A program made the translations under genes and the position numbers. From Thraustochytrium sp. TN22 (taxonomy: Eukaryota > Sar > Bigyra > Thraustochytrida > Thraustochytriidae), in assembly GCA_013306675.1 (NCBI GenBank), contig JABLUY010000159.1:55001-92286 (forward strand): a stretch of 37,286 bases of DNA, given 5' to 3'. Below the pieces are notes generated by a model that was not told the DNA's origin, made no database searches, and worked only from the letters and a program-made list of their open reading frames with translations. This document shows, in pieces, positions 1,328 to 21,858 of this stretch. Every line of letters begins with the position of its first letter. Position 1 is the stretch's first letter.

Positions 1328-1424
1328 CGCCTCTTTCCCTTTTCTCCTTCGCCCATTCGCTCGCCCACCTAATCTCCCTCGGTCTCTCTCGAGGTCCGCC
1401 CAGCCGAGTTTGGGTTTTTTCAAG

Positions 1425-1590
1425 TAGGCCTGCGAGCAAGTAGAGAGCACGACGACATAGTCCTTGGACGCCCTGTCCACGTCATCCTTGGCGACCGTGA
1501 CGCTCTCGCGGCAGACCTCGATCGCGGCGTCGCGCGCGGGGCCCGGCACCTCGCGCGGGCGCGCGTCCCTCGCATCGCGGCGCGGCGCGG
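1425..1590 (-). pseudogene. Coding-like fragment: internal piece of an unknown protein
   Basis: On the minus strand a stretch with good G/C third-position bias reads RDAAIEVCRESVTVAKDDVD and continues RASKDYVVVLSTCSQAYL. The bias and the low arginine content stop at both ends: upstream the frame becomes arginine/alanine-rich GC repeat, and downstream it becomes a poly-lysine and basic stretch. No start, stop or splice signals can be assigned. It appears to be a gene fragment in the opposite orientation to those on either side. The family is not recognised. Confidence 0.3.
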
Positions 1591-1672
1591 CATAGCGTGC
1601 GGCGCGCTGCGGTGCGGCGCGCAGCGCAGCGCGCAGCGCGCGGGCGAGGCGGCGAGAGAGGGGACGGCGTCC

Positions 1673-1792
1673 ATGGCGAGCACCGTGCCGCCCGCCTTGG
1701 TCTACGAGCTGCTGCAGATGACCGTTGGGGGCCGGCGAGGCGCGGCGTGCGAGGCGCGGCGTGTGGACTCTGCCGGGCTCCGGACTCACTAG
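1673..1792 (+). pseudogene. Coding-like fragment: possible 5' end of a gene, 39 codons
   Basis: An ATG at 1673 opens MASTVPPALVYELLQMTVGG, which reads like a real N-terminus. It then runs into arginine-rich sequence and a TAG at 1790-1792. The ATG is preceded by GC-rich short repeats (gcgcagc-type, about 1590-1660), the same arrangement seen upstream of most real genes in this window. It could be a broken copy of a 5' end together with its leader, or the first exon of a gene whose splicing I cannot see. Confidence 0.25.
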
Positions 1793-3435
1793 GTGCTGCT
1801 GAGAGTTTGAGGCGTCGGGTATGCAGGGACGTCGTCGCGGAGCCCCATGGGCTCGCCTTCAACTCCCTGGTCTCCATTGATTGCGGCTTCGTGAGCGCTG
1901 TCCGTCGAAATCTCCTGCGGCGTATCTTGGAGGTACAGTGCGAAAATCATCAACATCCTCTTCGTTCGACACGGAGCCTGCGTCCTTCACAATTGGAGGT
2001 CGATGCATTCACTTGGAATCTTTGGTCGGAGTGCCGTCCTCCCAGCTGACGTAGGAGCTGGAAATCCAGTCGAGGCGCGGCGTGCGGCTTGCTCGCGCTG
2101 TTCAGTGAGCGTCGGCATGAAGGTAAGCCCTCAGTCAGGCCAGATAGCTCGTCGCGCGTTGCTACGCCGCCCTCGACTGCGTCGGGTGCTGTCTGCCGAC
2201 GCCACGCACCTCAGCCGAGGGCCGAGAGGCTCCTTGCTTGCTAACTTGCTCACACGAACAGGTGACGCTGCCCTCTCACTCGTGTGCTCACCCATGCGGT
2301 CACTTGCCTTTCCTTTTCCCTGGCGCCGGGAACTGGCTGCGCTGAAGGCGACGCACGGGCCAGGCGGTCTGACAGTGAGTGAGGCCACGTGCACACGCTA
2401 GGAGCGTTCGTGCCTCGCGTCAGGCACGCACTGCTTCCAATCAAGGAGGAGGTACGACGGCACAGCAACGCGCGCCTCTGACGTTCCAGCCAGGCTCGCC
2501 ACACCAGGCTCTGCGGGATGAGGGCTGGCCGATCACAGCACCCTAGGCCTCAGCACAAATTGGTCGAGCGTGTGCGAAAAACCAGTCGTTCAAGCTGGAA
2601 TGGCGGGGGCGCACGCTGCCCTTTCTGCGTTGTGCGCATTGAAGGAGACGACCTATGTAAACCGATCACTTGAAACGGCTCGAGCTTGACTCCACGGTCA
2701 TCCTCAAGGGACATCGTCCCAAGGAATCTGCGCTTTTGGCTGGCTCCCAGGGCGGTGAACGCAAGGCTTCTTGCCGCCTAGGCGCGCCAGCCGCTGAGCT
2801 TTGGTTCATCAAGCTGGGTGTGATGGCGACCCGTGCGCGCCTCGTGCAGATCATGGTCGGGGAAAGAGGGGAAAGAATCGGTTGGCGTTCTCGCCCCGGC
2901 CTCGGAACAGTACCGCTGCTCCAGTGTGCGTCCGGGTGGTCGCCGGTGCCGGTGTTGTGCTGCGCACTCCGTGCGCTCTGCCAGCTCGTGGTGGCTCGTC
3001 TCACCGGGTGCTCAACTCAACATGCTTATGCTCTCGGCCTTGACGTCGACGGAGCCTTGCGATGAGTTGGCGGTCAACTCCAAGGAACGCTCAGTTTCAG
3101 TCAAGGCTACCGGCATGGTCGGGCTCTATCATGATGAGCCCGGGAATGCGCACAATACGGTAAAGCATGCGGCGTCGCCGGCTCCATTCACGACCCACGG
3201 CCCAGGCGATGACAGGTCACTCGAGGCTGGCGCTGCGCCAACGGTTGGTCAGAGGTAGCCACGAACTGTCACCATGTGCGCCTCTCCATCTGACTCGAGC
3301 AGTTGCTTGGGTGGGACCATTTGGCCCTCCTTGCAGGACGTCCGAGAGGCATGCTGCATTCCCCATTTTTGGGTCAACTCACGTTCACTGTCGCGCGCGG
3401 AAGTGTTCAAACAGTGCTCTGCTCTGCCTTGCGCG

Positions 3436-3473
3436 TGCGAGAAAGGGAAGGGGGGGAGGAGGGGGGAGGGGCG
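3436..3473 (+). repeat. G-rich tract with quadruplex-forming potential
   Basis: At least four runs of three or more G on the plus strand (ggg, gggggg, gggggg, gggg) with one- to three-base spacers. It lies about 220 bp upstream of the coiled-coil gene at 3689. Confidence 0.5.
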
Positions 3474-3688
3474 CTTTAGCCTTCTGTCTATGAATAACGT
3501 GATTTGAGCGTTTGACAGTTGACCGACCCAACAGACGAGCCCGGGTCGCTTTCAGAATCGGCCATCCGTCGCAATGGGTTCGACGCTAGACGTTGGACCG
3601 ACCATAGCATCAAAGCAGCATCGCAGTCCATGCTTGCGGAGTAGACGGCCTTGGATTTTCGTCGCGCTGCTTGGCATTGCTTTCAAAG

Positions 3689-4831
3689 ATGAGCGACAAT
3701 ATCCCACGCTTCGACCTTAGCGTGCTTGACGAGGACTCGGAGGAGGGCACGCTGGCTGGGCGTGGTGCACTTGACAGCTCATGGCCAAAGGTAGCTTCTT
3801 CGCGCTGCGTCCCGCCCCGTGGGAGCAGAGAGGATGGCCGCGAGATACCTGGATTTATGCGGCCGACAGCGAGCTCATCGCGCCGCAAGGTAAGCGTGCG
3901 TCGCAGGCCGAGCAAATCCGCCGCAGAAGGGGGTTCTTCGCAGCTCACTCGCGCCAAAGGAGTGATGCAGGTGCCGACCGACGAGCCTGCCTCCGGCAGG
4001 ACGAGCGAGCCGTCGCCTGCGCCTGGATGCCTCGACTTGAGCTCGATCGAGAGGGAGGCGCGCCTGGTACAGGCGGTTTTTGACAAGGTTGTGCTTGCGG
4101 TCGGCCATCACGTGAATTGCAAGGTGACTGCAGAGCTCAAACTGGCCCGTGAAAAGCTTCGGAACGTGGACATCGAGATTGACGCGAAGAATAGAAAGTT
4201 CATGTACATGGACGCCTGGACCAAGTCTGCGGTGTCAATGACTGCCAAAGAAGCAGTTGCAGAGCAGGTCAGAACGCAGGACAAGCGTATCGAGGAGCAC
4301 ATAAAGGTGCAACGTTGCAACTTCACGACGCAGGCCGCCCTGCTTGAGGAGCACGTGGGCCAGGTGATGGACCTTTGCGCACGCGTCAACGCGCTCGAAG
4401 AGCGCTTCAAGAATGCAGACAAACTCCTTCAGTCCAATACTCGCGAGATTGAGGCCATTCAAGCGCACGTGGCGAGTCCGGCGAGGAGCGGAGGGGATTC
4501 CGTGGGCGCACGCCTCAACGCGCTCGAAGAGGTCTTCAAGAAGAATAGAGACAGGTTCCTTCAGTCCAAGCGCGAGATTGAGGCCATACAAGCGCACGTG
4601 GCGAGTCCGGCGAGGAGCGGAGGGGATTCCGCGGGCGCACGCATCAACGCGCTCGAAGAGCGCTTCAAGAATGCAGACAAACTCCTTCAGTCCAATACTC
4701 GCGAGATTGAGGCCATTCAAGCGCACGTGGCGAGTCTGGCGAGGAGCGGAGGGGAGACCGCGGCTGCGCTGACGGCTGAGCAGGAGGCTCTGGCTTGTGT
4801 CCAGCGCCAGCTCAACAGCCTGCGACGGTGA
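3689..4831 (+). CDS. Coiled-coil protein with three 43-residue repeats
   Basis: The frame encodes 380 residues from the ATG at 3689 (MSDNIPRFDLSVLDEDSEEG). Residues 1-125 are polar, with Ser/Arg/Pro-rich stretches, and look disordered. From about residue 130 the protein is strongly helical and charged. Residues 232-274, 275-317 and 318-360 are three tandem copies of a 43-residue unit containing NALEERFKNADKLLQSN and REIEAIQAHVASPARSGGDS. The protein ends with another helical segment (EQEALACVQRQLNSLRR). A coiled-coil scaffold is the likely class, but I recognise no family. The repeats are exact 129-bp units at DNA level, and the first and third are nearly identical while the middle one has diverged between its shared ends. 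Third-position bias is weaker than in most other genes here. It converges with the gene at 4963-5700, with 131 bp between the stops. Confidence 0.7.
   Translation: MSDNIPRFDLSVLDEDSEEGTLAGRGALDSSWPKVASSRCVPPRGSREDGREIPGFMRPTASSSRRKVSVRRRPSKSAAEGGSSQLTRAKGVMQVPTDEPASGRTSEPSPAPGCLDLSSIEREARLVQAVFDKVVLAVGHHVNCKVTAELKLAREKLRNVDIEIDAKNRKFMYMDAWTKSAVSMTAKEAVAEQVRTQDKRIEEHIKVQRCNFTTQAALLEEHVGQVMDLCARVNALEERFKNADKLLQSNTREIEAIQAHVASPARSGGDSVGARLNALEEVFKKNRDRFLQSKREIEAIQAHVASPARSGGDSAGARINALEERFKNADKLLQSNTREIEAIQAHVASLARSGGETAAALTAEQEALACVQRQLNSLRR
4382..4768 (+). repeat. Three 129-bp in-frame tandem repeats
   Basis: Units begin at 4382, 4511 and 4640, exactly 129 bp apart. Units 1 and 3 share a long identical stretch through the central helix codons. 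Unit 2 differs there (FKKNRDRFLQSKRE instead of FKNADKLLQSNTRE) but matches in its second half. This points to recent duplication or gene conversion within the gene. Confidence 0.9.
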
Positions 4832-4962
4832 CTTCTCCGAAGGAGCAAACGAGAATCTGTTTGTGAATAGTGGGCAAGCGAGAATCATTGGCAAACCGCT
4901 CTGCGTGCTGGGAATGTCTCAGGCTCGGCCCGAGCGTGCTCAGCCTTGACATCCTAAATTCC

Positions 4963-5700
4963 TCAAATCTTGCTCTTTTGATGGTAGGCGGTGAGCATGG
5001 CGATAGCAAGGCGGATGTCGAAGGACTTGTTTCGCACGATGGCGAGCTTGCGCCCGGCCGGGCCATCGCGAGCCTTGCTCATGTTGGCGGCGTAGAAAGC
5101 GGTGGTGGCGTCCATGTCGCCAGTGACGAGGGCAATGCCCCAGAGGCTTCTCCCGGAGAAGTCGAACATGCCGGAGTTCTTGACGGGCGCGCCCGGCTGG
5201 GGGCCGACGACCTCGACGATGAGGTCTCCGCCGGGCCGCACGATGGCCTGGGTGACACCCGGGTAGATGCCGTCGATCTTCTTGCGGAGCTCGATGCCGC
5301 TGGCCTTGAAGGCCGCGAGGGTGGCGTCCACGTCGGGCGTGCGGAGCACGACGTTGTCAACAGCTACGACGCCGTTGGGGTGCTGGTCCGAGGCCGTGCC
5401 GGGCTGCACCAACGCCTTGGCGTCCTCCTCCGAGACGGCGAGTGTCGAGAAGCCCCCAACGTCGCCGAGGTCGGCGCCGCCGCTCCAGGCCCAGGTGGGC
5501 ACGCCGCTAGCGCAGGCCTCCGCGCCGCGCGCCCCGAGCCCGATGGCCAGCAGGTTACCCTTGGGCGTGGCCACGCTCAGCCAGGCCGTGCAGCCTTGGT
5601 TGGCCAGGAACTCTGGCACAGGCTCCGAGCGCAGCGCGAAGCCCGCGCGCTCCCAGCTGCCCGGCGCGTCGCCGCTCACCAGCGCAACGAGCCGCGTCAT
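4963..5700 (-). CDS. VOC-superfamily (glyoxalase-like) protein
   Basis: This 245-residue protein starts MTRLVALVSGDAPGSWERAG. The middle, from about residue 107, reads HPNGVVAVDNVVLRTPDVDA followed by an amphipathic helix (TLAAFKASGIELRKK) and strands ending IVEVVGPQPG. That is the beta-alpha-beta-beta-beta pattern of the vicinal-oxygen-chelate fold. A second half-module follows (SLWGIALVTGDMDATTAFYA), ending GRKLAIVRNKSFDIRLAIAM, close to the usual end of these proteins. His107 and Glu163 are at places where metal ligands often sit, but ligand assignment needs alignment. The substrate cannot be told from the sequence; glyoxalase, dioxygenase or a non-enzymatic member are all possible. No targeting peptide is obvious. 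Its upstream flank holds a G-rich tract at 5827-5849. Confidence 0.7.
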   Translation of the reverse strand: MTRLVALVSGDAPGSWERAGFALRSEPVPEFLANQGCTAWLSVATPKGNLLAIGLGARGAEACASGVPTWAWSGGADLGDVGGFSTLAVSEEDAKALVQPGTASDQHPNGVVAVDNVVLRTPDVDATLAAFKASGIELRKKIDGIYPGVTQAIVRPGGDLIVEVVGPQPGAPVKNSGMFDFSGRSLWGIALVTGDMDATTAFYAANMSKARDGPAGRKLAIVRNKSFDIRLAIAMLTAYHQKSKI

Positions 5701-6193
5701 GCTCCGCGGCCTGGCTGTTCGTGGACTTGATGCAGCGCAGGCGGGCCTTGCTATGATTCCGTTGCTTGCTCTGGATGCTTTGGTTTTCGAGGTTTTCGTT
5801 TTGGTTCTGGTGTTGCGACCCGAAAGGAGGGAGGGAGGGAGGGGTCCGCGCAGGCTGCTCTCCGGAGTCTGGACTGGTATGGATGGTACCAGATACCGGT
5901 CAGTACTACTAACTTACTATCTGCGATTCTGCGGGCACTTGCGTAGGACGCAGGACGAAGCCCGCCCGGCCACGGGCCGCAAGTGCGCCAAGGCTTGCCC
6001 GAGGTTCGCGACTCGCTCGGCGGGGAAAATCAAGCAAAGCAAGCAGGGGTAATTCAGTATGATCAAAGATGGTCAGAAAGACGGAGTCTCACAGTCACGC
6101 GGGGCTGCCTCTCTCTCTCGTTCTCTCTCGGTCGCTCGGTTTCCGGCTGTACTCTAGAGCGCTAGCCCTAGTTGCCTCGCTCCCGCGCGGTGG
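5701..6193. other. Intergenic region, 493 bp, between two minus-strand genes
   Basis: It must contain the promoter of the VOC gene (start at 5700) and the 3' end of the membrane-protein gene (stop at 6194). Visible content is a G-rich tract (5827-5849), an AT-richer patch with several tact motifs (5900-5922), and a pyrimidine-rich ctctct stretch (6109-6140). No gene is seen. Confidence 0.5.
5827..5849 (+). promoter_or_regulatory. G-run tract, quadruplex-capable, in the VOC gene upstream region
   Basis: The sequence ggagggagggagggaggggt contains four or more G-triplets with single-base spacers, a classic quadruplex-forming arrangement. It is 127-149 bp upstream of the VOC gene start, on the non-coding strand for that gene. 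Confidence 0.45.
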
Positions 6194-8044
6194 TCAGTGC
6201 GGCTGCCACTTGAACAAATAGGAGTAGTCTGAGCCGTGGGGTGCGCTCTCGTCGTCAGAAGAGTCATCGGTCTCCTCCTCCTCGTCAGAGACGTGCACCT
6301 GGACGACCTCGCGGCCGGCGCGGAAGAGAACGCTGAGCTGGTAGACCATCTGCAGGAGCACGAGGAGACCACCAAACTCGATGACGTAAGACCCGAGGTG
6401 CAGGGTGTTCTTGAGAACCTGGGACTCGGGCTTGAGGTTGGGGAAGAAGATCCAGAGCCAAATAGGGATGGTGACAGGCTGCGAGGGGCGCACACGGTAG
6501 TCCTGATCCGGGTGCGTGATGATCCAGTACACGTGCTCGAAGAAAGGCATCATACGGTTGAAGCCAACGATGAGAAGCGGCACGACGTAAAAGACCAAGA
6601 TGTAGCGCGGACGCATCGAGAAACCCTGGCCGGGCGTGCGCAGGCTGGGGCGCTTCTTGGGCGCCTTGCCGCGACGGCGGCGGGTAGTCGTGAGCGTGCC
6701 GCGGCGGCGGCGGTGGTTCTGGTAGTACTCCTCGGGCGCCTCGGGGCGCGCGTGCTGAGAACGCGTTCGGTTGGCCTTGAGCTGCACCTTGCGCTTGATG
6801 GCAGCGCCAAAGGCGATGCCGTCGCGGCGACGGAGCACGAGCACGCGGCCGGCTGACGCGGCTGCGGAGGCCTGCGACGCGGAGAGCTTTGCGCCGAGAA
6901 CGTGCGTCTTGAGCATGTCGTCGGCGGACAGGGCGCGGCGCTCGTCACTGGGCAGCTTGTAGGCGAACCTCTTGCGCGTCGCCGGGTAGACGGCGTCCAC
7001 GGCCGACATGGCGGCTGCCTCGCTGGCGCCCTTGCGGCCCGGCGCCTTGGAGGGCGCCAGCGTCGGCCGCGGGGCCTGCCGCGATTGCTCCTCGCGGCTC
7101 GGGGCGGCACTGCCCCCGTCGCCGTCCTCGTCCTCGCCGTCGCTGTCAAGCTGGGGCTCGCTGACGGCATCATCCTGCACGAGCTCGATCTCGACCTCGA
7201 GGTCGAGGTCGTCGGCGCTGGACGACCCGCCAACGCTGCTAGCGTCCTTGCCGTCTGGCCGCTGGAAGAGGGGCCGGATGCTATCCCAAAAGGCCCTCAG
7301 CGTCGAGTCGCGTTGGGCCTCCTCGAGGCCGATCTCGGGCCCAGGCGCCGGCACCGGCGCAGTGGACGCGGCCGGCGCTTCGGCAGCGTCGGCGGGCTGG
7401 GCGCCGCGCACCGAGCGGCGCGGCTCGCCGCCGCTGAACTCGCTCCGGTAGCTGGCGCGGAAGCCGCCGTTGCCCTGGTCCCAGTACTCGTCCTCATCGG
7501 GGGCGGCGCCCCAGTGCCCGCGGCGGCTCAGCCAGGCGTCGCGACCCTCCGTGGGCGGCAGAGGGAAGACCTCCACCTCCGACACGAAACGCACCCGCTG
7601 ACCTGACTTGCGGTTCCTGATGGACGTTCTCACGGACATGCGCTTGGCGCGCAGGTCCTCCTGGTCCCAGCCGCCGCCGCCGCCGCCGCCGCCATCGTCG
7701 TCCAGCTGCGCGTCCGCCTCCTCGGCCGGCGCCTTGGCCCGCTGCTGCGCCACCACGCGCGCCAGCGACGCGGCCGACTCATTGATGTAGTCAAACAGCC
7801 CCTCCACCGTGAAGGCGCCCGCCTCCGCGCCGCGCGCCGCGCCCGCGCCGCCTGCGCCGGGCTCCTCCTCTCTCCTGTACAGCCTTCTCGAGCGCCTCGC
7901 GCCCTTGGCCGCCCGCGCCGGCGCCGCTCCTCTCGCCGCCGTCCTCCGCGGCGCGCCGCTCGCGTCCGCTCGCCTCGCGCCTCCTCCCTCCGCGCGCGCC
8001 TCGCGGCCCGCGCGCCGCCGGGGCCCATCCCCATCATCCCCCAT
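6194..8044 (-). CDS. Unidentified acidic membrane protein with C-terminal hydrophobic segments
   Basis: The frame encodes 616 residues from the ATG at 8044. The first 75 residues are low-complexity Arg/Ala/Gly. A more ordinary segment follows (AFTVEGLFDYINESAASLAR), then a Gly run near residue 120 and SVRTSIRNRKSGQRVRFVSE with EVEVFPLPP. A long acidic and serine-rich region occupies about 230-330. A basic stretch (NHRRRRGTLTTTRRRRGKAP, about 440-460) precedes a hydrophobic segment at about 480-501 (YILVFYVVPLLIVGF), a shorter aromatic one (PIWLWIFFPNL), and another at about 550-572 (IEFGGLLVLLQMVYQLSVLF). The end is acidic (VSDEEEETDDSSDDES). A two-pass, possibly three-pass, membrane protein with a large N-terminal domain fits. 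I recognise no family. The start is uncertain because the first 75 codons lie in GC-repeat DNA; initiation further in is possible. Confidence 0.65.
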   Translation of the reverse strand: MGDDGDGPRRRAGREARAEGGGARRADASGAPRRTAARGAAPARAAKGARRSRRLYRREEEPGAGGAGAARGAEAGAFTVEGLFDYINESAASLARVVAQQRAKAPAEEADAQLDDDGGGGGGGGWDQEDLRAKRMSVRTSIRNRKSGQRVRFVSEVEVFPLPPTEGRDAWLSRRGHWGAAPDEDEYWDQGNGGFRASYRSEFSGGEPRRSVRGAQPADAAEAPAASTAPVPAPGPEIGLEEAQRDSTLRAFWDSIRPLFQRPDGKDASSVGGSSSADDLDLEVEIELVQDDAVSEPQLDSDGEDEDGDGGSAAPSREEQSRQAPRPTLAPSKAPGRKGASEAAAMSAVDAVYPATRKRFAYKLPSDERRALSADDMLKTHVLGAKLSASQASAAASAGRVLVLRRRDGIAFGAAIKRKVQLKANRTRSQHARPEAPEEYYQNHRRRRGTLTTTRRRRGKAPKKRPSLRTPGQGFSMRPRYILVFYVVPLLIVGFNRMMPFFEHVYWIITHPDQDYRVRPSQPVTIPIWLWIFFPNLKPESQVLKNTLHLGSYVIEFGGLLVLLQMVYQLSVLFRAGREVVQVHVSDEEEETDDSSDDESAPHGSDYSYLFKWQPH

Positions 8045-8964
8045 GCCATCCCGCCGCCGCGCCGCCGCCGCGCCGCGCGCCGCCCTCGCGCGCGCCGCCC
8101 TCGCGCGCCGCCTGCGCGCGCCGCCACGGGCCGCCGCGCGCGCGCCGCCCGCCGCGCCGCGCGCGCGCGCGCCAAGGCTTTGCTTTGCCAGGCTTACTTA
8201 CGTGCCGGAAGCGGCAAAGCACGTGCACGTACCGCTCCGCGATACCGTACCGCTATCGTACGCGTGGCGCGACTCGGAGAGCACCGACACCAAGAGCGAC
8301 GAGCCCAGCGGGAGCGAGCGAGGCGAGGCGCGGAGCAGGAGCAGCGCGGGCCGGCGCCGCCGCTGCGCGCGGGAAACGTCGCCCGCCCGGCCTCCGGGCG
8401 CCCGGCGGGCCGGCCTCCGAGTCCCGCGGGCCTCGGGCTGGAGGGGATGGTCACTCTTGAGGACGAGGACTCGGAGGCACTCGGAGGCAGTGCCACGCGG
8501 AGGCTGTGAGTGACGCAGGCTGACGAAGGAGGAGGAGGAGGAGCCTGAGGAGGACCGGTGAAAGGCTGATGGAGAGCGCGGAAATGGGGCGGGGTGGCGT
8601 GGCGAGGCGACGCCGGCGGGGAGCTGGGACTGACCTGGCTGGCTGGCGTCGCGTTGCGTGGGTTTGCAACCTTGCACGACAAGCCTTGTGAGGCACTTCT
8701 ACCTGGAGTGGGGGGTCAAGACTTGGCGAGATTTCGTGCGTTGCAACACGCAAACCGCAATCTTTGAGGACTCAATCGTTGGCGGGCCAGTGGGCGAGCG
8801 CCGTCTCTGGCCAACGAGCGCGACACATGCCAGTGGGGGGTTCTTACATCTTAGCTTGGTACGAACCAAGTAGTGGCCGCTGGCTTCTTCGTCACGGTCA
8901 CGCCATCTTGACAAGCGCGCTCGTGCGTGGCGTCAATGTAAAAGCCGCCGTCAGAACTAATAAG
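8045..8964. other. Intergenic region, 920 bp
   Basis: The part next to the membrane-protein start (8045-8170) is a cgccgc / cgcgccgcc simple-sequence block, typical of 5' flanks in this window. The middle holds gga-rich tracts near 8460-8560. At 8855-8870 there is a perfect 6-bp inverted repeat with a 4-base loop (cttggt acga accaag), about 95 bp beyond the COMMD gene stop. No gene is supported. Confidence 0.45.
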
Positions 8965-9399
8965 TTACTCTTCGTGCGTCTCGTCGGGCGCCGCGAGCTT
9001 GCGGCGAAGATGATCTTCAATTCCATGGAGCTCGTGCACGAACCTGCGCGTCTCAGCGGACGTCATCTCCAGCGTGCGCCTGACAATTGTGCCATCCTGA
9101 TACCTGAGCGCGAGCGCTAGCGAGACGAGCGGGTCGGCTGTGGCCGCGAGCGCGTCGCTGCCGCGCACGAGGCCGATGGTGTAGTCGAAGTCCACCAGCT
9201 GCGGCGTGGCGTCATCGACCAAGAGCGCCGCCGACGACGCCGACGCCGACGCCGGCGGCGGCGCCGGCGCTGACGCTGACGAGGACCGGTGCGACGAGGA
9301 CGACGAGGGCCCAGCGCCCGGCGTCTCGCTGTCACCGGCCACGGCGGCCGCGTCCTCGGCGCCGGCCATGACGGCGGCCTCGAAGCGGGTCTGCGCCAT
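8965..9399 (-). CDS. COMM-domain protein, COMMD6-like
   Basis: A 144-residue protein with a poorly conserved, Ala/Ser/Pro-rich N-terminal half (residues 1-62) followed by a COMM domain at about 67-136. The domain shows the family pattern: PQLVDFDYTIGLVRGSD, then strands around LVSLALALRYQDGT, then RTLEMTSAETRRFVHELHGI and a closing helix. COMMD proteins assemble as a ring in the Commander complex, which works with retriever and CCC components in endosomal recycling of membrane cargo. The short form without an N-terminal helical domain resembles COMMD6 more than other members; the exact paralogue cannot be fixed by eye. The gene is head-to-head with the lipoyl(octanoyl)transferase gene, 90 bp apart. 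The ATG at 9399 is the first in frame; Met11 is an alternative. Confidence 0.75.
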   Translation of the reverse strand: MAQTRFEAAVMAGAEDAAAVAGDSETPGAGPSSSSSHRSSSASAPAPPPASASASSAALLVDDATPQLVDFDYTIGLVRGSDALAATADPLVSLALALRYQDGTIVRRTLEMTSAETRRFVHELHGIEDHLRRKLAAPDETHEE

Positions 9400-9489
9400 G
9401 GCGGCTGGTCAGCGGCAGCGCAAACCTGAGTCACTCGCGCGCGCGAGCGTGCGCGCGGCAGCGCGGCAGCGCGGCAGCGCGGAGCCGCC
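9400..9489. promoter_or_regulatory. Compact bidirectional promoter, 90 bp
   Basis: The whole space between two divergent start codons. It contains alternating cgcg DNA and an 8-bp repeat (gcggcagc, three copies, 9455-9482) that ends just before the plus-strand ATG. There is no TATA-like sequence. Both transcripts must start inside or very near this interval, so leaders are very short or the promoters overlap the genes. Confidence 0.6.
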
Positions 9490-10188
9490 ATGGGCGGAGC
9501 GCGGCGCACGCTGGAGCTGGTGCACGTGGCCGGGCGGTGCGCGTACGCGCACGGGCTAGGCCTGCAGCGCGCGGCGCAGGAGGACAAGCTGCGCGCGCTG
9601 CGCGAGGACAAGGAGGTGCCGCGCGACCAGCTCTTCTTGCTCGAGCACGACCCCGTCTATACGCTGGGAAGGTCCGCGGACGTGGGCAACGTGCTGTCCG
9701 GCGTGGCCGAGGGCGGCTTTGAGGTGGTGCGCGTGGACCGCGGCGGTGAGGTGACCTTTCACGGGCCAGGCCAGGTGGTGGGCTACCCGGTGCTGGACCT
9801 GCGCAGGCACACCAAGGACCTGCACTGGTACATGCGCCAGGTGGAGGAGGTGGTCATCTCCACGCTGGCCACCTACGGCCTCGAGGGCTCGCGCAAGGTC
9901 GAGTACACCGGGGTCTGGGTCGGCGACGCCAAGGTCTGCGCCATCGGGCTCAATGCCAGCCGCTGGATCACCTCGCATGGATTCGCGCTCAACGTGACCA
10001 CCGACCTGACAGCCTTTGATCGCATCATTCCCTGCGGCATTGACGAGCCGGGGCTCACGGTGACCAGTCTTGAGGCGCTCCTGGGCAAGTCGCTTCCGCG
10101 CATGGAGGTGCAGGAGCGCCTCGTGCGCGAGTTCATGCGTATCTTTGACTATCAGCGCGTCCACGTGCTAGACCAGCGTGTGAAGTAG
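9490..10188 (+). CDS. LIPT2: Lipoyl(octanoyl) transferase (LipB/LIPT2)
   Basis: This 232-residue protein has the hallmarks of octanoyl-ACP:protein N-octanoyltransferase, which moves octanoate from acyl carrier protein to lysines of lipoate-dependent enzymes as the first step of lipoyl assembly. The motif RGGEVTFHGPGQVVGYPV lies at 84-101. The lysine-containing GVWVGDAKVCAIG (Lys148) and the cysteine in IIPCGI (Cys182) match the catalytic Lys and Cys of the family. WITSHGFALNVTTDL (159-173) is also typical. In eukaryotes this step is mitochondrial or plastidial. The N-terminus begins almost directly with the conserved domain and shows only a weak basic leader, so targeting is unclear. Length is normal for the family. 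It is divergent from the COMMD gene and converges with the LarA-like gene, 158 bp between stops. Confidence 0.92.
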   Translation: MGGARRTLELVHVAGRCAYAHGLGLQRAAQEDKLRALREDKEVPRDQLFLLEHDPVYTLGRSADVGNVLSGVAEGGFEVVRVDRGGEVTFHGPGQVVGYPVLDLRRHTKDLHWYMRQVEEVVISTLATYGLEGSRKVEYTGVWVGDAKVCAIGLNASRWITSHGFALNVTTDLTAFDRIIPCGIDEPGLTVTSLEALLGKSLPRMEVQERLVREFMRIFDYQRVHVLDQRVK

Positions 10189-12897: not shown

Positions 12898-15800
12898 CTA
12901 GTTTGAATCCGAAGCCTGCGCTTGGGCAAGGCCGGCCGCCTGCACGAGCTTGGAGAGGCGCGAGTCCGGGTTGGCAAGAAGGGATGAAAAGGAGTCGTAC
13001 TCGGCGACGCGGCCCTGGTGCATGACGAGACAGCGGTCCATGTCGAGGACAGTATCAAGGCGGTGGGCAATGACAAGCATGGTGCAGCCGGGGAAGCTGG
13101 AGCGGATGCTCTTCTGGATGAGCGCGTCGGTCTGGCGGTCGAGGGACGCGGAGGCCTCGTCGAGCAGGACGATCTTGGATTTGCGCAAAATGGCGCGCGC
13201 TATGCAAATGAGCTGCCGCTCGCCGACCGAGAGGTTCTCGCCTCCCTGAGAGACCTGGCTGCCGAGGCCGTGCGGCAGGGCATCGACGGTCTTGCGCAGG
13301 TGCGCCTTGTCGATGGCGTCCCACAGCTCCTCGTCCGTCGCGAGGTCGAAGGGGTCGAGGTTCTTGCGCAGCGTGCTGGTGAAGAGCACCGGGTCCTGCG
13401 GGATGCAGGTGATCACAGAGCGCAGGTCGTGGACTGGGACCGAGGCGATGTCCACGCCGTCAATGCAGATGCGCCCCCCGGCCAGCGGGTGCACGAGGCG
13501 GAAGAGCGCGACGAGCGCCGTGGACTTGCCCGAGCCCGTGGCACCCACGATGGCGACGCGGGTGCCGGCCGGAACGTCGAGGGTCACGTTGCGGATGGCG
13601 GGCTCAAGCTCGGCTCGATAGCGCAGCGAGACGTCCTCGAAGCGGATGGCGCCCGCCGAGGGCCAGCCGGGCGGCGGCGGCGAGGTGGAGTCGGCGTCGT
13701 CGAGGGCTCGCTCGTTCGGCAGCACCGTGTACTCGAGGACGCGCTCCACAGCGTTCATCTTGGCCTCCGCCTGCGAAGAGGTCATGACGGACATTTGCAG
13801 GTTGACCACCAAGTTGAGCGAATAGGAGAGCGCCAGGCCGGCGAGGCCCGGCGCGACGTCCGTGCCGATGATGGCCACGGCCGTCACAAAGACGATGAGC
13901 GCGCCAAGGAACTCGAGCCGCATCGTGAGCCACAGCTGCGTCGCCTCCACGGCCAGATACGCGCGGTGGTTAAGGCCAACGAGCGTGGCGGCTACGCGCA
14001 GCCAGGCGCCCACGCGCTCGTAGGCGCGCAGCGTAGACACGCCCTGCAGCGTCTCGCCCAAGTGCGAGTACACGGGGCTGCGCAGCACGGACTCGAGGCG
14101 CTGCACGTTGACCGCCGTACGCCGGTACAACTCGCGGATGGCTGCGTAGATGATGATAAAGGGCACGAGTGCAATGGCAAAGGTCGGCACGCTGATGCAG
14201 ATGAGCACCACAATGCCCACCACGCGCACGGCCGTCATAATGAACCACTTGAGCTGCTGCGGCAGCATCACATCCAGGTCGTTCGTGTCCTTCGACAGTC
14301 GGTTCAGGATGCGGCCCATGGGCGTGCTCCAGAAGAACTGCATCGGCATGTAAAAGACGTTCTCCTGCAGGTCGTTGTAGAGCGTGCGCGCCGCGTTTAC
14401 GGAGAAGTGCGCAAAGATCATGGCGCGCGTCACCAGGATGCAAAAGTACGCCAGCGTCAGGCTAAAGTACACCGTCAAAAACTGCCTCTCGGACACCGCC
14501 GAGCCACCGTCGCCCTGGTCCGAGTACCGTGCAAGCCACGAGTCGATGCTCAAAAACACGCCCTCCGTCACAAAGAAGAGCAGCAGAAGCGCCAGCGCCG
14601 CCAGGCACGACCCGTTCGTGCCCGACAGCCAGTAGTCCTTGACCGTGCGCCATTTGAGCGCGCCCTTCTCGCGCCCTTCCGCGCGCACCAGCGTGCCCTT
14701 GTCTTCGTCGCCTTGTGTGCCCGCCTCGCCACCCTCCTGCTTCTTGACCTGCCCGCTCACGCGGCGCCGCGCAGACGATGCGGAAAGCGCCGAGGCGGCC
14801 TGCCGCGCGGAGGACGCCACCGACAGCGAGGAAGCGGCTCGGCGCGCGTCACCAGCGTCCTCGGAATCATAGTCCGTCGCGTTGTCCTCTTCCTCCTCCC
14901 TCCTGTCGACGTTGTCCAGGTGCAGGTCCTCGAACTCCTGCGCCGCCAGCTCTTGAACGTCCACCGCGCCCTTGGCGTCGTCCTGCTGCTTGGTTGGATC
15001 ATCCTCCTGCTCCTGCTTCTGGGGAAGCGCGTCAAAAAGCGCGGAGCTCCGCGCCTGCAGCTCTGCAAAGGTACCCTGGTCCACAATGCGACCGCCCTGC
15101 ATAAAGAGGATGCGGTCCACGTGCTCCAGCAGATTCAAGTGGTTCGTCACGAACAGTCGCGTCGACCGCCGCAGCGCGGCGCTGGGCGCGTTGCCGATGC
15201 AGTGGTCAAAGATGTGCTTGCCCACGTGCGCGTCCACGGCAGACAGGACGTCGTCTAGAAATACAATGTCCGGGTCGGCATACACGGCGCGCGCGAGACT
15301 GACGCGCGCCTTTTGGCCACCCGACAGGTTCACGCCGCGCTCGCCAATCTCCGTCATGTCGCCGGCCAGCAACGTGGCGAGGTCCGACACGAGCGCGCAC
15401 GCCTCCAGCGTCGCCTGATAGCGCGCCGCATCAAAAGGTGTCTCGAAAAGGATATTCTCGCGCACCGTGCGGTTCATGATGAAGGGCTCCTGCGAGCACA
15501 GCGCCAGCGACCCGTGCATCTGCACCGACCCGGACACGCGCCGCATCTCGCCCAGCAGCGCCGAGAGCAGTGACGACTTGCCGTCGCCAATGCGGCCCAC
15601 GATGGCAACGAGCTCGCCCTGCTGCACAGTAAAGTCCAGATTTTCCAGGCGAAACGGCGAGCCCACCTCCTCGCCCTCGGCCGGCTGCTCCGGCTCCGTG
15701 CTCCGCTTCGCCTCCACGGCGGCGCCCGCCCGACCCGAAGGCGGTGCTCGGGCGGCGCCAGCTCCGGCACTCCTGTCGGCCGTCGGGTCGCCGCCGAGAT

Positions 15801-17223
15801 TGAGCGACCACGTGAAGGTCGCGTCCCGCACGCGCAGCGCCACTGACGCCGCGTCCGAAGTGGCATCGCCGTCGGCGGTTTGCTGGTGCGTGGCGAGCAC
15901 AGGAAAGGACGGCGCCGGCGTGAGGAGGTCGCGCGGGTTCTCCGACGGCGAAGCGTCCACCTGAAGGAGAAAGTCCTGCGCCTCGGCGCGCGTCTTGAGC
16001 GCGAAGAACTTGGAAAAGCGATCGGCCGACACGAGCGCGCGCGTGAGCAGCGTGATGGCGAGCGGCAGCATGATAAACGGCGTGCGGATGATGTTGAAGG
16101 CACTCACGACCGCAAAGGTGTTCGCCGGGGAGATCTCGTTGCCAAAGAGGATGTAAGCGCCGAAGGTGACGACGCTGGCCACATTGGGCATGGCCACGGC
16201 GAACGGCATGGTGATGCCGCGGTAGTACGAGAGGATCCTGATGGAGCGCATCTCCACGGCGCGCACCGCGTTCAGGAGCTCCAGCAGCGGCGTCTCCCAC
16301 GCGTACAGCTTGAGCACCTTGATGCCCTGCAGCATCTCGTTCACCGTCTTGACGCGCACGTCCGTCTGTCGCATCTTCTTGCGCTGCAGCCGCGTCTGCA
16401 CCTTGCCAAAGCGGATCGATAGCGGCACGAAGAAGATCATGACCAGCAGCCCGATGAGCACCGACGGGCCCACATACGTGTAGACATAGGCCACGCCGCC
16501 CACGAGCAGCAACGGCGCGGTCCAGAGCCGGTTGAACATGCGCATGAAGTCAATGGCCACCACGGCGTCCGTGCTGACCAGGTTTACCACCTGGCCGTCC
16601 GACACGCTCTGCCGGCCCTCTTGGTCGAGCCGCAGCACGTGCTTGAAGGTGGCCAGGCTCAGCGCGTTCTTGAGCCTCAGCCCTACCTGCACCATGTAGA
16701 ACCGCGAGTGCATGTTGCACATGGTCGACGCCGCCTGCGCCAGCGCCAGACCCATGGCGAGCAGGTAGCCACGCGCGCTGTTGGCCGTCCCACGCTCCAG
16801 CTCCAGCACCAGCTGGCGCAGCAGAATCGGCCCGGCGAACCGCAGCACCGCGTACGACAGCTCAAAGATGCCGCCAATGACAAAGTCCCACAAAAACATG
16901 CGCAGCGTCGCCCGCCACACGGCGTACGGTCGAAACGCGTCGCCATCCTTGGTGCGGTACTCCTCCAGCAGCGCCAAAAACTGCTCCGCCAGCATGTCCG
17001 GCTCGTCTGTGGACCGCAGCTTCCACAGGTCGCCCGTCTTTAGCGCCTCGCGCCGCAGGCCCTTGCGGATCAGCGCCGAGATCCAGCTAAAGAACGCCCA
17101 CGAGATCCACGACACGTTCTCGATGTTCTTGCCCTCCTGCTCGTCCACGGCCATGCCGTTGAACATCACCACGGTCGCACTCGCGTCCGCCGGCGCCGTC
17201 TCCTCCTGCGGCTTGCCCGCCAT
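12898..17223 (-). CDS. ABC transporter, subfamily C (short MRP type)
   Basis: 1441 residues from the ATG at 17223 (MAGKPQEETAPADASATVVM). Layout is TMD1-NBD1-TMD2-NBD2 with no TMD0, as in short MRPs. TMD1 begins after WISWAFFSWISALIRKGLRR. NBD1 has Walker A GRIGDGKSS (about 541), signature LSGGQKARVSLARA (about 630), and Walker B IVFLDDVLSAVD, where Asp replaces the catalytic Glu as is usual for ABCC. NBD2 has GATGSGKST (about 1230), signature LSVGERQL and KIVLLDEASASLD with the Glu kept. The linker between NBD1 and TMD2 is acidic then Ser/Ala/Arg-rich and contains ARRRVSGQ, a possible basophilic-kinase site. Members export organic anions and glutathione conjugates; substrate and membrane are unknown. 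The frame extends 64 residues upstream only through a non-ATG codon. It is divergent from the SPO22-like gene. Confidence 0.93.
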   Translation of the reverse strand: MAGKPQEETAPADASATVVMFNGMAVDEQEGKNIENVSWISWAFFSWISALIRKGLRREALKTGDLWKLRSTDEPDMLAEQFLALLEEYRTKDGDAFRPYAVWRATLRMFLWDFVIGGIFELSYAVLRFAGPILLRQLVLELERGTANSARGYLLAMGLALAQAASTMCNMHSRFYMVQVGLRLKNALSLATFKHVLRLDQEGRQSVSDGQVVNLVSTDAVVAIDFMRMFNRLWTAPLLLVGGVAYVYTYVGPSVLIGLLVMIFFVPLSIRFGKVQTRLQRKKMRQTDVRVKTVNEMLQGIKVLKLYAWETPLLELLNAVRAVEMRSIRILSYYRGITMPFAVAMPNVASVVTFGAYILFGNEISPANTFAVVSAFNIIRTPFIMLPLAITLLTRALVSADRFSKFFALKTRAEAQDFLLQVDASPSENPRDLLTPAPSFPVLATHQQTADGDATSDAASVALRVRDATFTWSLNLGGDPTADRSAGAGAARAPPSGRAGAAVEAKRSTEPEQPAEGEEVGSPFRLENLDFTVQQGELVAIVGRIGDGKSSLLSALLGEMRRVSGSVQMHGSLALCSQEPFIMNRTVRENILFETPFDAARYQATLEACALVSDLATLLAGDMTEIGERGVNLSGGQKARVSLARAVYADPDIVFLDDVLSAVDAHVGKHIFDHCIGNAPSAALRRSTRLFVTNHLNLLEHVDRILFMQGGRIVDQGTFAELQARSSALFDALPQKQEQEDDPTKQQDDAKGAVDVQELAAQEFEDLHLDNVDRREEEEDNATDYDSEDAGDARRAASSLSVASSARQAASALSASSARRRVSGQVKKQEGGEAGTQGDEDKGTLVRAEGREKGALKWRTVKDYWLSGTNGSCLAALALLLLFFVTEGVFLSIDSWLARYSDQGDGGSAVSERQFLTVYFSLTLAYFCILVTRAMIFAHFSVNAARTLYNDLQENVFYMPMQFFWSTPMGRILNRLSKDTNDLDVMLPQQLKWFIMTAVRVVGIVVLICISVPTFAIALVPFIIIYAAIRELYRRTAVNVQRLESVLRSPVYSHLGETLQGVSTLRAYERVGAWLRVAATLVGLNHRAYLAVEATQLWLTMRLEFLGALIVFVTAVAIIGTDVAPGLAGLALSYSLNLVVNLQMSVMTSSQAEAKMNAVERVLEYTVLPNERALDDADSTSPPPPGWPSAGAIRFEDVSLRYRAELEPAIRNVTLDVPAGTRVAIVGATGSGKSTALVALFRLVHPLAGGRICIDGVDIASVPVHDLRSVITCIPQDPVLFTSTLRKNLDPFDLATDEELWDAIDKAHLRKTVDALPHGLGSQVSQGGENLSVGERQLICIARAILRKSKIVLLDEASASLDRQTDALIQKSIRSSFPGCTMLVIAHRLDTVLDMDRCLVMHQGRVAEYDSFSSLLANPDSRLSKLVQAAGLAQAQASDSN

Positions 17224-18146
17224 CGTGCCCGGCCTGTGCGCGAACCCCCAGCGCCGGCTCCAGCTCCCGCGCCGCAGCTGGGGCTGGCCGTGCGGCTCTG
17301 CGCCGCTTCGCGCCGCCTCGCGCCGCCTCGCGCCGCCGTTGCCGGTATGCTGCCGGAGCGGAGTCTGTCGCGCGAGGCGGGCCTTCACCAAGGTCGCCCC
17401 GACGGCACGCGCCAACGACGGCGAAGCGGCGAAGCCGAGGCGCCCGGCGATGAGGAGGAGGACGCCCGAGCGCCGAGCGGACCAGACTCACCAGAGCACG
17501 AAGCCGCGAGGAGCACTGCCAGAGCACGGCCGCCGTTGTGCCGCGACGCGGAGTCGCAACCTCGAGGCGAGCGAGCGAGCGAGAGCGGAGGAGCGAGCCA
17601 AGGAGCTGCGCCGAGCGAGGCGCCGCGGTCAGGCCGAGGAAACTTCTCCGCGGCCGCGGCAGCCAGACGACCTTTGGCGCCACGTCGCGTCGCGTCGCGT
17701 AGCGTCTGCAGCGAAACTGGCAGCGGTGAGAGGGCGTCTCTCCGGTCTTGGTCTGCCGAGCAGTCTCGGATCGTACCCGTGTGCCCTCTTTGTCTCATCA
17801 CGCACAATTCAGTCGTGCGCGACGATGATGCGGTAGTTCGTCACGGTTAGACCCCGTCGAGGTCACGGGCGCCAGCTGCGAGACCCACGCCGCCACTCAC
17901 TCGGCCGCCCATGACTCTCAAGTTCTCACTGAGGAGCCTGCTACAGACGAGGCGCACTTTTCCTCTACAGCCGCACATTTTCTCTGCTGGCTGCAGCTCA
18001 GGCTGTGCTCGTCCTCCGCCTGCAGGCGCCGCTCTCTTCTCAGACACTCTGCATGCATGCTGGCACATCCGAGCTCCGTCTTGTCTTCTTCGTGGAGGCC
18101 TTTGCCACGTTTGAAATGCACGAGGTTGCCGACCTCGGAGCCCTTG

Positions 18147-18234
18147 GGGCGGTCGTTGTTGTGGCGCCCTCCTCGCCGTTCTCGCGTTACTGCCGCACGA
18201 GACGGTGCCAGAGCTCGTCCACAAGCACGACGCC
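18147..18234 (-). repeat. Inverted copy of part of the SPO22-like gene
   Basis: The reverse complement of this segment matches 19945-20029 inside the downstream gene (residues about 545-573). By eye the two differ by one 3-base insertion and about six substitutions over some 82 bases. A shared 20-base core is tgccagagctcgtccacaa plus flanks. Confidence 0.85.
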
Positions 18235-18235
18235 T

Positions 18236-18309
18236 CGAAGGCGGTGCTCGGGCGGCGCTAGCGCCGGCACTCCTGTCGGCCGTCGGGCCGCCACCGTTGG
18301 CGAGATTTC
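18236..18309 (+). repeat. Direct copy of part of the ABCC gene
   Basis: This segment matches 15736-15803 on the same chromosomal strand, with about four substitutions and a 6-base insertion near its right end. A shared stretch is ccggcactcctgtcggccgt. The source encodes residues about 474-496 of the transporter, at the start of NBD1, on the other strand. It directly follows the inverted SPO22-like fragment and ends at the SPO22-like ATG. Confidence 0.85.
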
Positions 18310-18312
18310 AAA

Positions 18313-21300
18313 ATGCAGACACCCATCGACGAGCTCGAGATGGCGCGCAAGGACGATGTGGACGCGGCCGAGGCGATGCAGACACCAGAAAAGGCCGCGG
18401 GCTCGGTGCGGCTGAGCGCCCTGGCCGCGGGCGTGGACCAGGTTTGCCTGGAGTTCCGCCAGGGGCGACCCGCGGCGGTGCTCTGCGAGCTGTTCGAGAC
18501 CGTGGTGGGCGTGGACCTCGAGAGCAAGCTGGACGAGGTGTTGCGCGAGGTGGACGCGCTGGGCGTGGCTGCGGAGGCGGCAACGCTGGAAACGCTGCGG
18601 TCACTGGGCGTGCGGCTGTACAACGTGTCGCGCGCGCTGGAACCGGCGGACGCGCGCGTGTTGCGCGTGCGCCTCTTAAGCATCCGCTGCTTGGAGGCGG
18701 GGCGCATGGACAGGCGCGCGATGCTGCTGTGCTACATGCGGACGGGGCTCAAGGCGCAGGAGCTGCGTGCGAGCGGCGAGCTGGGCGAGGCTGCGGCGCA
18801 CGAGCTGGCCGTGGTGGCATTTCGACGCGGGTTTGGGCTGGTCCCGCTGGGCGACGCCTTGCGCGTCGGGCACGACGAGGAGACGGCGACGCAGGAAGAG
18901 CACGACTTTGCGGCCAGCGTCTTCCAGGGCGCGCTCTGCTTCACGGAGCTGGAACTCCGCGCCAAGGGCGAGGACCCAGCACGGTCGAGCCTGCGCTTAC
19001 TGTGCGACCTGTGGCGCGGCGCCATGGAGACGCTGGGCACGCGCGTGCGCGCGAGCTTCCGCAAGCGCACCTGGCATGTCACACGGCGACTTGCGCTGCT
19101 GGCGCACGAGCGCGGCGAGCACCTGGAGGCGGGGCTGGCGCTGCTGGAGGCGCTCGAGCAGTGGTTCCCGGCCGAGACCTTTGATGAGGAGGCGCGCCTG
19201 GACGACCTCGTGGCCATGGCCGACATGCAGGTGGCCACGGGGAACCGCGGACTGGCGAGCGCAACCCTGGACGCGGCGAGGGCGTTGGGCCAGGAGCTGG
19301 CGACGCGCCAGCGCCAGAAAGCGCCATCTGCGGAGCTGGACTGGGCACGTATTCGAGACGGCGGGCCAGTGCAAGAGGGCGCCCCAGGGGAGGTCGCCCT
19401 GCGTCTGCATGGCGTCAAGCAGGCCGTCGTCGCGGTCAAGCTGAGCCTGGCCGAGGTGGACGCGCTCGCGCCGACGCGCAAGCTCCTGAACGAGACACAG
19501 GCTTGCTTCGGCGAGGCGGCCGCCCGCGCGCGCGAGGCCATGGCCGACCTCGTGACAGCGCTCGGCGTCTTTGCCGCCGGCGCAGAGGCGCGCGAGGCCA
19601 TGGACGCGGACTCGAGCGTGGCGGACGTCGAGACGGACGACGAGCTGGAGCAGCAGGAGGGCCGAGACGAGGGGCGCTCGGGTGCCCGCGACACGGCGAT
19701 GCGCGTGTGGACGCTGGCCCGACTGGCCTGCATGGCCTATTGCGAGTCGCTGGGGTTCACGGAGGCGAACTTCGCCGCGAGCTTCGCGGCCACCGAGGCG
19801 AGCCTCGGGGTCATCGTCTCGGAGGCGCAGCGCGCCACTGTGCGCGTGGACGTTCTGCAGCGCGTGCCGGCGACAGCGCAGGGGGGCCTGCTGGCGGGCA
19901 TGCTGCTGGAGGACCTGGCGTCCGCCAAGCTGGAGCCCTCGCACGGCGTCGTGGTTGTGGACGAGCTCTGGCAGCGTCTCGTGCGGCAGCAACGCGAAGA
20001 CGACGAGGAGGGCGCCACAACGACCGCCCGCTTTTTGGTGGCGCTCGGCGAGCACGACCCGGTCGCGACCGCGTACGCGCGGCTCGTGCTGGCGTCGGGC
20101 CTGGCACGCAAGGGCGCGTGGCGCGACGTGCTGGAGCAGTGCGTGAAGATCGGCGCCCAGGGCGCAGATGCACTCGTGGCAGGTGCCCGAGCGCGCCTGC
20201 TGGCGCTCGAGCTGGAGGCGAGTCTGCGCGTGCACCGTGCTCTGGGGCCTGTCCCGCGGCGCGCGCTGCGAGCGCTTTGGGCCGACGGCCGCTCGAGCCC
20301 TGCGGAGCTCGCCCACTGCGCGGGCGTCGCCGCCCAGGTGGGCGCCCTGGGAGAGTTGTCTTCAGTGCTCATGGCGTCGCCCGAGGCGGATCGGGACGCA
20401 GTCTGGGTGCATTTGGTCCTCGGCGTGCTCCTGGCTCGCCTTGGCATGGTTCCGTCAGCAGTGGCCTTTGACGATTTCTCGGGCGATGGGAGCAGCGCCA
20501 TGGCCGTCTCGTACGAGGAGGCCGCCCGGGTCCTGCGGCCGCTGCTGCGTGCCGTCAGTCTCGGGCCCATCGTGTGGTGCCCGCCGAAGCGGCCTCGCAC
20601 GCAGCTGGAGGCGAGCCTGCTGTGGCTGCAGACGGTGGCCTGGCGGCTCGCGCACGAGGTGCTACCCCGGCTTGCGGCGGCGGCGGCGGCGGCGCTGCCG
20701 CCTGACGTGCGCGTGGAGGGCGCGCTCTACGCGCTTTGTGCGAGGTCGAGTGAGGCGCTCTTGGAGACAAGCAATGCGCCGGACGAGGAGACGGCGACAC
20801 TTCAGGAGCGGCTTCGCGCATCCGTGGAGAACGCAATCTGCGCACTCGCCGACACGGTGTTGAGTGCGGCCGTGACTACGATGCTGTCGGAGCCTGGCCT
20901 GAGTGTCGCGCAGGCGTCGGCCACATCACAGATGCCCGCGGAGGTGCGCGCCGACCTGGCGTGGTCTGCGCAGCGCGCAGACCGCGCCAGCGCGGTGGCT
21001 CTCGTGGCGCAGTACTTGGTGACGCCGTCCTCGCCGCAGTTCGTTCTGCAGTCTGCAGACAAGATGGCCCAGTTCGCTCTCTTTGGCCTTGTCCATGGCG
21101 ACGCTGCTGGAGCGCGGCAGCTCTTGCAGCAGGCACTGCAGGTGGAATTGGCCGGAGTGCGGCCGTCTGGGCCGCGTGTGGGTCGCCTGCTCGTTCTGTT
21201 AGTCAGGCATGCTGCTTCGGAGCAGCAAGCCCTGGACTGGGCCTTGCAGACACTTCAGGTCCGCGATGCGCTCGGGCACGAGTTCCTTACACAGGCAGAC

Positions 21301-21858
21301 CGGCGTTACCTGGCTGCCTGGCTGTGGAATACTGGCGTGCAGCGGGGCCGGCGTGCCTCTCGTGAGGACCGCGCTGTGCACCGCGTCCTCCTTGAGAAGG
21401 CCGTGCTCATTCTCGAGCACGCGCCGGTAGCGCATGAGGACCGTGGCAAGGCCGCGGTCTTGCGGGGCACTCTGGCGAACGACAAGGGAGATGCCGGACA
21501 GGCAGTCGACCGCAAGGAGGATCGCAAGGACGATGCAAGCAGCGCGGCGAGCGCCAAGGTGTGCATGGCGAGTGAAGATGACGACTTGTGCGCGAGAAAA
21601 GTCGGCGACGATGGCGACGAAGAAGAAGGTGACAAAGACAAGGAAGAAGACCAAGAAGATCAAGAAGATCAAGAAAAAGAAGAGGAGGACAAAAAGGACC
21701 AAGGCCACGAAGACAGAGTCAAAGACAACGCAAGGTCCGCCAAGGCCCCGGTTGCAACGCAAGCAGCTCCTGGGAGCGAGAGCAGGCTGGCCGCATCGCA
21801 AGCATCGCCCAAGTCAACAAGCGACGAGGAGCAGGGAGAAGAAGAGTCGGACGAATGA
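18313..21858 (+). CDS. Large helical repeat protein, possible SPO22/ZIP4/TEX11-like
   Basis: 1181 residues from the ATG at 18313, almost entirely alpha-helical, alanine/leucine/arginine-rich, with TPR-like helical pairs throughout. Near the C-terminal end of the helical part, YLAAWLWNTGVQRGRRASRE followed by LLEKAVLILEHA resembles the Leu-Trp-Asn block of SPO22/ZIP4 proteins, as does the earlier RLYNVSRALEPADARVLRVR. SPO22/ZIP4/TEX11 proteins are TPR scaffolds of the meiotic crossover machinery. This assignment is tentative; a generic TPR protein is the alternative. Residues from about 1040 to the end form a Lys/Glu/Asp-rich disordered tail. The 5' flank is a chimera of gene fragments, one copied from this gene. 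It converges with SURF6, with 53 bp between stops. Confidence 0.6.
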   Translation: MQTPIDELEMARKDDVDAAEAMQTPEKAAGSVRLSALAAGVDQVCLEFRQGRPAAVLCELFETVVGVDLESKLDEVLREVDALGVAAEAATLETLRSLGVRLYNVSRALEPADARVLRVRLLSIRCLEAGRMDRRAMLLCYMRTGLKAQELRASGELGEAAAHELAVVAFRRGFGLVPLGDALRVGHDEETATQEEHDFAASVFQGALCFTELELRAKGEDPARSSLRLLCDLWRGAMETLGTRVRASFRKRTWHVTRRLALLAHERGEHLEAGLALLEALEQWFPAETFDEEARLDDLVAMADMQVATGNRGLASATLDAARALGQELATRQRQKAPSAELDWARIRDGGPVQEGAPGEVALRLHGVKQAVVAVKLSLAEVDALAPTRKLLNETQACFGEAAARAREAMADLVTALGVFAAGAEAREAMDADSSVADVETDDELEQQEGRDEGRSGARDTAMRVWTLARLACMAYCESLGFTEANFAASFAATEASLGVIVSEAQRATVRVDVLQRVPATAQGGLLAGMLLEDLASAKLEPSHGVVVVDELWQRLVRQQREDDEEGATTTARFLVALGEHDPVATAYARLVLASGLARKGAWRDVLEQCVKIGAQGADALVAGARARLLALELEASLRVHRALGPVPRRALRALWADGRSSPAELAHCAGVAAQVGALGELSSVLMASPEADRDAVWVHLVLGVLLARLGMVPSAVAFDDFSGDGSSAMAVSYEEAARVLRPLLRAVSLGPIVWCPPKRPRTQLEASLLWLQTVAWRLAHEVLPRLAAAAAAALPPDVRVEGALYALCARSSEALLETSNAPDEETATLQERLRASVENAICALADTVLSAAVTTMLSEPGLSVAQASATSQMPAEVRADLAWSAQRADRASAVALVAQYLVTPSSPQFVLQSADKMAQFALFGLVHGDAAGARQLLQQALQVELAGVRPSGPRVGRLLVLLVRHAASEQQALDWALQTLQVRDALGHEFLTQADRRYLAAWLWNTGVQRGRRASREDRAVHRVLLEKAVLILEHAPVAHEDRGKAAVLRGTLANDKGDAGQAVDRKEDRKDDASSAASAKVCMASEDDDLCARKVGDDGDEEEGDKDKEEDQEDQEDQEKEEEDKKDQGHEDRVKDNARSAKAPVATQAAPGSESRLAASQASPKSTSDEEQGEEESDE

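Follow-up and report, generated by a model that had tools for sequence, protein, structure and literature searches.

A patch apparently copied from two genes directly before a start codon, probably a scar of DNA repair or replication

Introduction

In the stretch of DNA analysed here (the window, 37,286 bp, 67% G+C, G000:C65:55001-92286 in a genome of 37.9 Mb in 453 contigs), the bases directly before the start codon of an 1181-aa open reading frame match segments inside that frame and inside the divergent gene upstream of it. The locus raises the question of whether such a flank is a regulatory leader, a mobile element or the trace of an accident in DNA metabolism. The last of these, a scar of one repair or replication accident for which no function is required, is probably correct; a repair-insertion scar, named in the preliminary description as the simple alternative, proved to be the best explanation.

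Long open reading frames and eukaryotic protein families (ABCC, SURF6, VASt and Ku) suggest a eukaryote with few introns, and the lack of any match to the chlorophyll-binding family in the genome hints at a non-photosynthetic organism. Elsewhere in the window, the minus-strand open reading frame 10347-12437 matches NCBIfam family NF052594, nickel-dependent putative hexonate epimerase, with 625 bits (cut-off 500). The matched family is one of nickel-pincer (LarA-type) enzymes, here in a eukaryotic genome that also contains, at G000:C412:30506-32083, a match to the LarC-type family Ni_insertion (PF01969).

Structure of the patch

The features of the locus are as follows.

12898-17223, minus strand: open reading frame of an ABCC (MRP-type) transporter, 1441 aa from the first in-frame ATG, the divergent neighbour
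15736-15801, minus strand: counterpart of piece 2, donor or recipient, in the linker of the ABCC open reading frame from the TFTW strand to the Walker A region of the first nucleotide-binding domain, with poor codon usage
18147-18234, minus strand: piece 1 of the patch, an inverted copy of 19945-20029 in the downstream gene
18235, no strand: spacer, a single T separating the two pieces, outside both BLAST matches
18236-18307, plus strand: piece 2 of the patch, a direct copy of the ABCC segment, antisense to the ABCC gene
18313-21858, plus strand: 1181-aa open reading frame, intact, downstream of the patch, without a family match above cut-off
19945-20029, plus strand: source of piece 1, in-frame inside the 1181-aa open reading frame, with typical codon usage

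BLASTN of positions 18047-18409 against the window aligned piece 1 with 20029-19945 in inverted orientation (88 columns, 89.8% identity, 117 bits, E 9.5e-29); the copies differ by six substitutions and a 3-base slip. Positions 18236-18296 were aligned with 15736-15796 in direct orientation (61 columns, 93.4%, 93.3 bits, E 1.1e-21), and this solid part of piece 2 contains four substitutions in 61 bases. Past 18296 the match is weaker and reaches about 18307 (source about 15801), given an insertion of about 6 bases and a shared AGATT. Carried to about 18307, the patch is about 161 bp long, and the five bases TCAAA are left before the ATG at 18313. The patch lies between the divergent ABCC gene and the 1181-aa gene, at gaps of 1.7 kb (piece 1) and 2.4 kb (piece 2) from its sources, both of which are within about 2.6 kb. 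Taken in the orientation of the downstream gene, each piece is antisense to its own source.

The duplication claimed in the preliminary description, with two sources, nearly abutting pieces and antisense geometry, was thus confirmed by the BLASTN self-alignment and by a repeat search of the window, which recovered both matches too. In its account of a two-fragment flank of 165 bp, the boundaries of piece 1 hold, but for the second match a solid alignment stops at 18296 and does not reach 18309. The pieces were also said to end at the start codon with almost no spacer between them: the spacer is indeed one base, but TCAAA remains before the ATG. At the junction between the pieces one base lies outside both matches and a few bases of overlap are possible.

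Significance and copy number

The two matches far exceed the best score of 33.7 bits obtained for 18147-18309 in 30 random windows generated under a first-order Markov model of this window. A query with the whole patch found only three places in the 37.9 Mb genome, namely the patch and its two sources, and the ABCC counterpart of piece 2, used as the query, gave two; the search skips very common words, so these counts are lower bounds.

A census of local repeats covered 231,999 bases, about 0.6% of the genome (contig C65 in full, with 5,000 N, and parts of C1, C2, C10 and C100). Seven pairs whose gap fell within 300-10,000 were detected when low-complexity sequence was filtered. Two of the seven are the pieces of the patch, and these are the only pairs that are neither tandem, low-complexity nor palindromic by eye; the other five were judged by eye to be part of a tandem array, CT- or CAG-rich, or palindromic.

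Other repeats were observed in and near the window. An inverted pair, window 4963-5704 and G000:C65:47550-48297, is 80% identical over 752 columns with a gap of 11,666, outside the census filter; it overlaps the minus-strand open reading frame 4963-5700 and is perhaps a duplicated gene. At 4377-4763 a 129-base unit is present in three tandem copies, of which the first and third are 96% alike and the middle one 78%. Positions 35777-36265 contain a degenerate tandem array, with its first and last 139-base copies 96% alike and the inner ones 65% (ungapped).

The copy number bears on a mobile origin. It is extremely improbable that a small repeat or a transposon-like element picked up a gene fragment and so gave rise to the patch. 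Such an element would account for the imperfect terminal inverted repeats of the ABCC copy of piece 2, CGACCCGAAGG and CGACCCGACGG (near-palindromic ends, judged by eye), but only two copies were found in the genome (a lower bound), no target-site duplication is present, and the copies of piece 2, folded as single-stranded DNA, are not clearly better folded than shuffled sequences (z -0.61 and -0.97). For piece 1, the corresponding values are z -2.01 for the flank copy and z -0.62 for its source. In the 20 bases flanking the patch on each side, common strings do not exceed 3 bases, and the right junction has no run of A other than the AAAA that belongs to the start-codon context. A repeat family or MITE, which would have several dispersed copies and a target-site duplication, was rejected in view of the copy number, the folding and the missing target-site duplication, and a class 1 (LINE-type) insertion was ruled out in the absence of a target-site duplication or poly(A) tract.

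The downstream gene and the direction of piece 1

The 1181-aa product had been labelled SPO22-like (SPO22/ZIP4/TEX11), a name that the searches do not support. Pfam gave no match at cut-off (one hit with E 0.023 and 14.9 bits, against a curated 33), NCBIfam none up to E 0.001 and PDB sequences none up to E 1. The SPO22 family itself (PF08631) had no match in the genome up to E 1, in a search where none of the control genomes was over cut-off and diverged members may be missed. From its sequence, the product should be called an "unidentified protein". The motif ATGCAGACACC occurs at the start codon at 18313 and again, in frame, 63 bases on at 18376; these are its only two plus-strand sites in the window. 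Translation of the patch as part of this gene is limited by an in-frame TAG at 18259, from which no in-frame ATG is present up to 18313.

The codon usage of 19945-20029 lies at the 76th percentile in its own gene and at the 59th percentile of 6292 windows of 28 codons from the sampled open reading frames. The piece 1 copy has a TAA in the reading frame of the source, and the differences fall at all three codon positions (1, 3, 1, 3, 1 and 2). Copying of piece 1 from gene to flank is well supported, because the codons of the source are ordinary and the flank copy carries a TAA in the source frame.

The ABCC gene and the direction of piece 2

The preliminary description assumed the direction from gene to flank for both pieces; for piece 2, in distinction from piece 1, codon usage does not settle it. 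The four differences fall at codon positions 1, 3, 2 and 3 and indicate no direction. The ABCC linker of the first nucleotide-binding domain occupies 15658-15807 in the window and is variable among paralogues.

A reversed course would make 18236-18307 native noncoding DNA that was copied into the ABCC gene, lengthening a disordered linker, while piece 1 was inserted at a break at 18235, and the position of that break defined both edges. This is unlikely, although it deserves serious weight. Within its own gene the ABCC segment is an outlier, at the 0.8th percentile of codon score (LLR) and the 0.1th of GC3, and the rest of the linker is normal. The segment 15736-15801 is 66 bases long, a multiple of three, and the linker site differs in length and sequence among four paralogues of this genome, with 16, 38, 56 and 71 residues that are not alignable by eye (18 genome matches including the window's own; five paralogue loci read, of which four were readable and L028 gave none). 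Against a wider sample, however, the segment falls only at the 6th percentile for LLR, the 10th for synonymous choice and the 12th for GC3 (6337 windows, each of 22 codons, drawn from 36 of the 39 long open reading frames in the sample, the 3 near the locus being left out). Over its entire length, the 50-residue linker (LLR 0.20, GC3 0.84) resembles that of paralogue L029 (LLR 0.24, GC3 0.76), and the reversed course requires a second lesion in the ABCC gene and a coincidence of boundaries.

As a test of the direction of piece 2, codon usage is suggestive only. Transfer of noncoding DNA into the coding sequence of the ABCC gene is possible, and copying from gene to flank is the simpler reading. 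If piece 2 did run the other way, the locus would illustrate, on a small scale, the incorporation of noncoding DNA into a membrane transporter.

Regulatory potential

Antisense orientation of both pieces to their sources would fit a regulatory device. The flank would then lie in the 5' UTR, where piece 1 would fold on its own mRNA and piece 2 would silence or anneal to the ABCC mRNA. The predicted duplexes have energies of -173.9 and -143.6 kcal/mol, and when the fold of the full-length transcript is predicted, piece 1 pairs with the source through 75 of its bases (transcript start at 18147) or 80 (start at 17950). The earlier suggestion that an intramolecular duplex is possible if the flank is transcribed is accordingly borne out by folding for both assumed starts.

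A regulatory role did not find the same support, and such a device is very improbable. Two antisense pieces are expected with a chance of 1 in 4 among random orientations. Six-frame searches of the 37.9 Mb genome, in which exon-split genes could be missed, revealed neither a Piwi (PF02171) nor an RNase III (PF00636) domain; among 14 control genomes, the same searches gave matches in 1 for Piwi and in 8 for RNase III. Canonical small-RNA silencing is thus without visible machinery, and a canonical RNAi (Dicer/Argonaute) locus was rejected on the same grounds. A duplex of this strength in the 5' UTR, ahead of the start codon, should block scanning and translation, yet the open reading frame is intact.

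One form of the device would be a cis-encoded double antisense leader, given a transcript start upstream of 18147. A self-duplex of 75-80 bp would shut off translation, and the second half of the leader would anneal to the mRNA of the divergent neighbour. There is only a slight chance that this is correct; if it were, both genes would be switched from a single alternative start site, with no need for Argonaute or Dicer.

Origin of the patch

The probable scar would have arisen as follows. A break or a stalled replication fork would have occurred between the divergent ABCC and 1181-aa genes. Healing would have copied about 88 bases of the downstream gene in inverted orientation and about 61-72 bases of the upstream gene in direct orientation, and the ends would have been rejoined just before the start codon. 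As to the route, fragments that had been captured or newly copied would have been joined end to end by end joining, or replication would have switched templates at microhomologies, in either case without Pol theta. The insertion itself is inferred from the patched sequence.

Divergence from the sources is alike in the two pieces, with 6 substitutions in 85 bases for piece 1 and 4 in 61 for piece 2 (Fisher p = 1.0). One templated-insertion event is inferred because divergence is similar, the pieces abut, the sources are local and there is no target-site duplication; it may have been a templated insertion with two template switches or the capture of two fragments. Two observations stand against the scar. 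The odd codons of the ABCC segment would fit the ABCC gene as recipient, and hence two separate insertions, and the ending of both pieces a few bases from an ATG is unexplained by a random accident.

Repair machinery in the genome

The genome search revealed two Ku genes and one family-A polymerase (PolA), a 917-aa open reading frame with a 3'-5' exonuclease domain, which we take to resemble organellar polymerases and not Pol theta. No helicase match was found in this open reading frame, and an adjoining 508-aa open reading frame on the same strand is without any match. A Pol theta-type gene, in which a family-A polymerase is joined to a helicase, was not found in the six-frame search, which a split or missing gene could escape. 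The Pol theta route was rejected, since its gene was not found in that search and the sole family-A polymerase found has an exonuclease domain and no helicase match. Because two Ku genes and no Pol theta were found, break end-joining or replication template switching is the favoured route.

Read as a scar, the patch gives a clear instance of a templated insertion from two sources in a eukaryote whose genome yielded no Pol theta gene on searching. It also indicates that such a patch can sit directly before a start codon with the open reading frame still intact.

Comparison with known insertions

The patch is a copy of sequence present elsewhere in the genome and lacks both a poly(A) tract and any target-site duplication of at least 5 bp; in these respects it corresponds to class 2 templated insertions. 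As these are outlined in PMC5110952, they are likewise templated patches without target-site duplication or poly(A), ascribed to patch repair of double-strand breaks. In that outline, however, the templates come from distant regions and an RNA template is proposed, whereas here the sources are local, one inverted and one direct.

Microhomology-mediated template-switch insertions, in the accounts of PMC8421209, PMC11724301 and PMC7954356, are similar in that inverted copies are inserted at the junction. The scales and sources differ. Templated insertions by MMBIR, as presented in PMC8421209, are detected with MMBSearch, which looks for templates within 100 bp, and the foldbacks in yeast are mostly under 14 bp according to the summary in PMC11724301, against gaps of 1.7 and 2.4 kb here. 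The template switching in apes treated in PMC7954356 is described there as short-range.

Theta-mediated end joining, as generally outlined, would also insert copies of local sequence, but the genome search turned up no gene of the Pol theta type. For breaks in yeast, the account in PMC11724301 states that foldback inversions depend on NHEJ and Pol delta; it also describes complex insertions made up of two fragments, both of which usually come from one locus, whereas here they come from two genes. These local inverted insertions by NHEJ and Pol delta are a fair model for a genome in which Pol theta was not found. On the best reading, the patch is a repair scar of an ordinary kind, though its composition from two genes is unusually neat.
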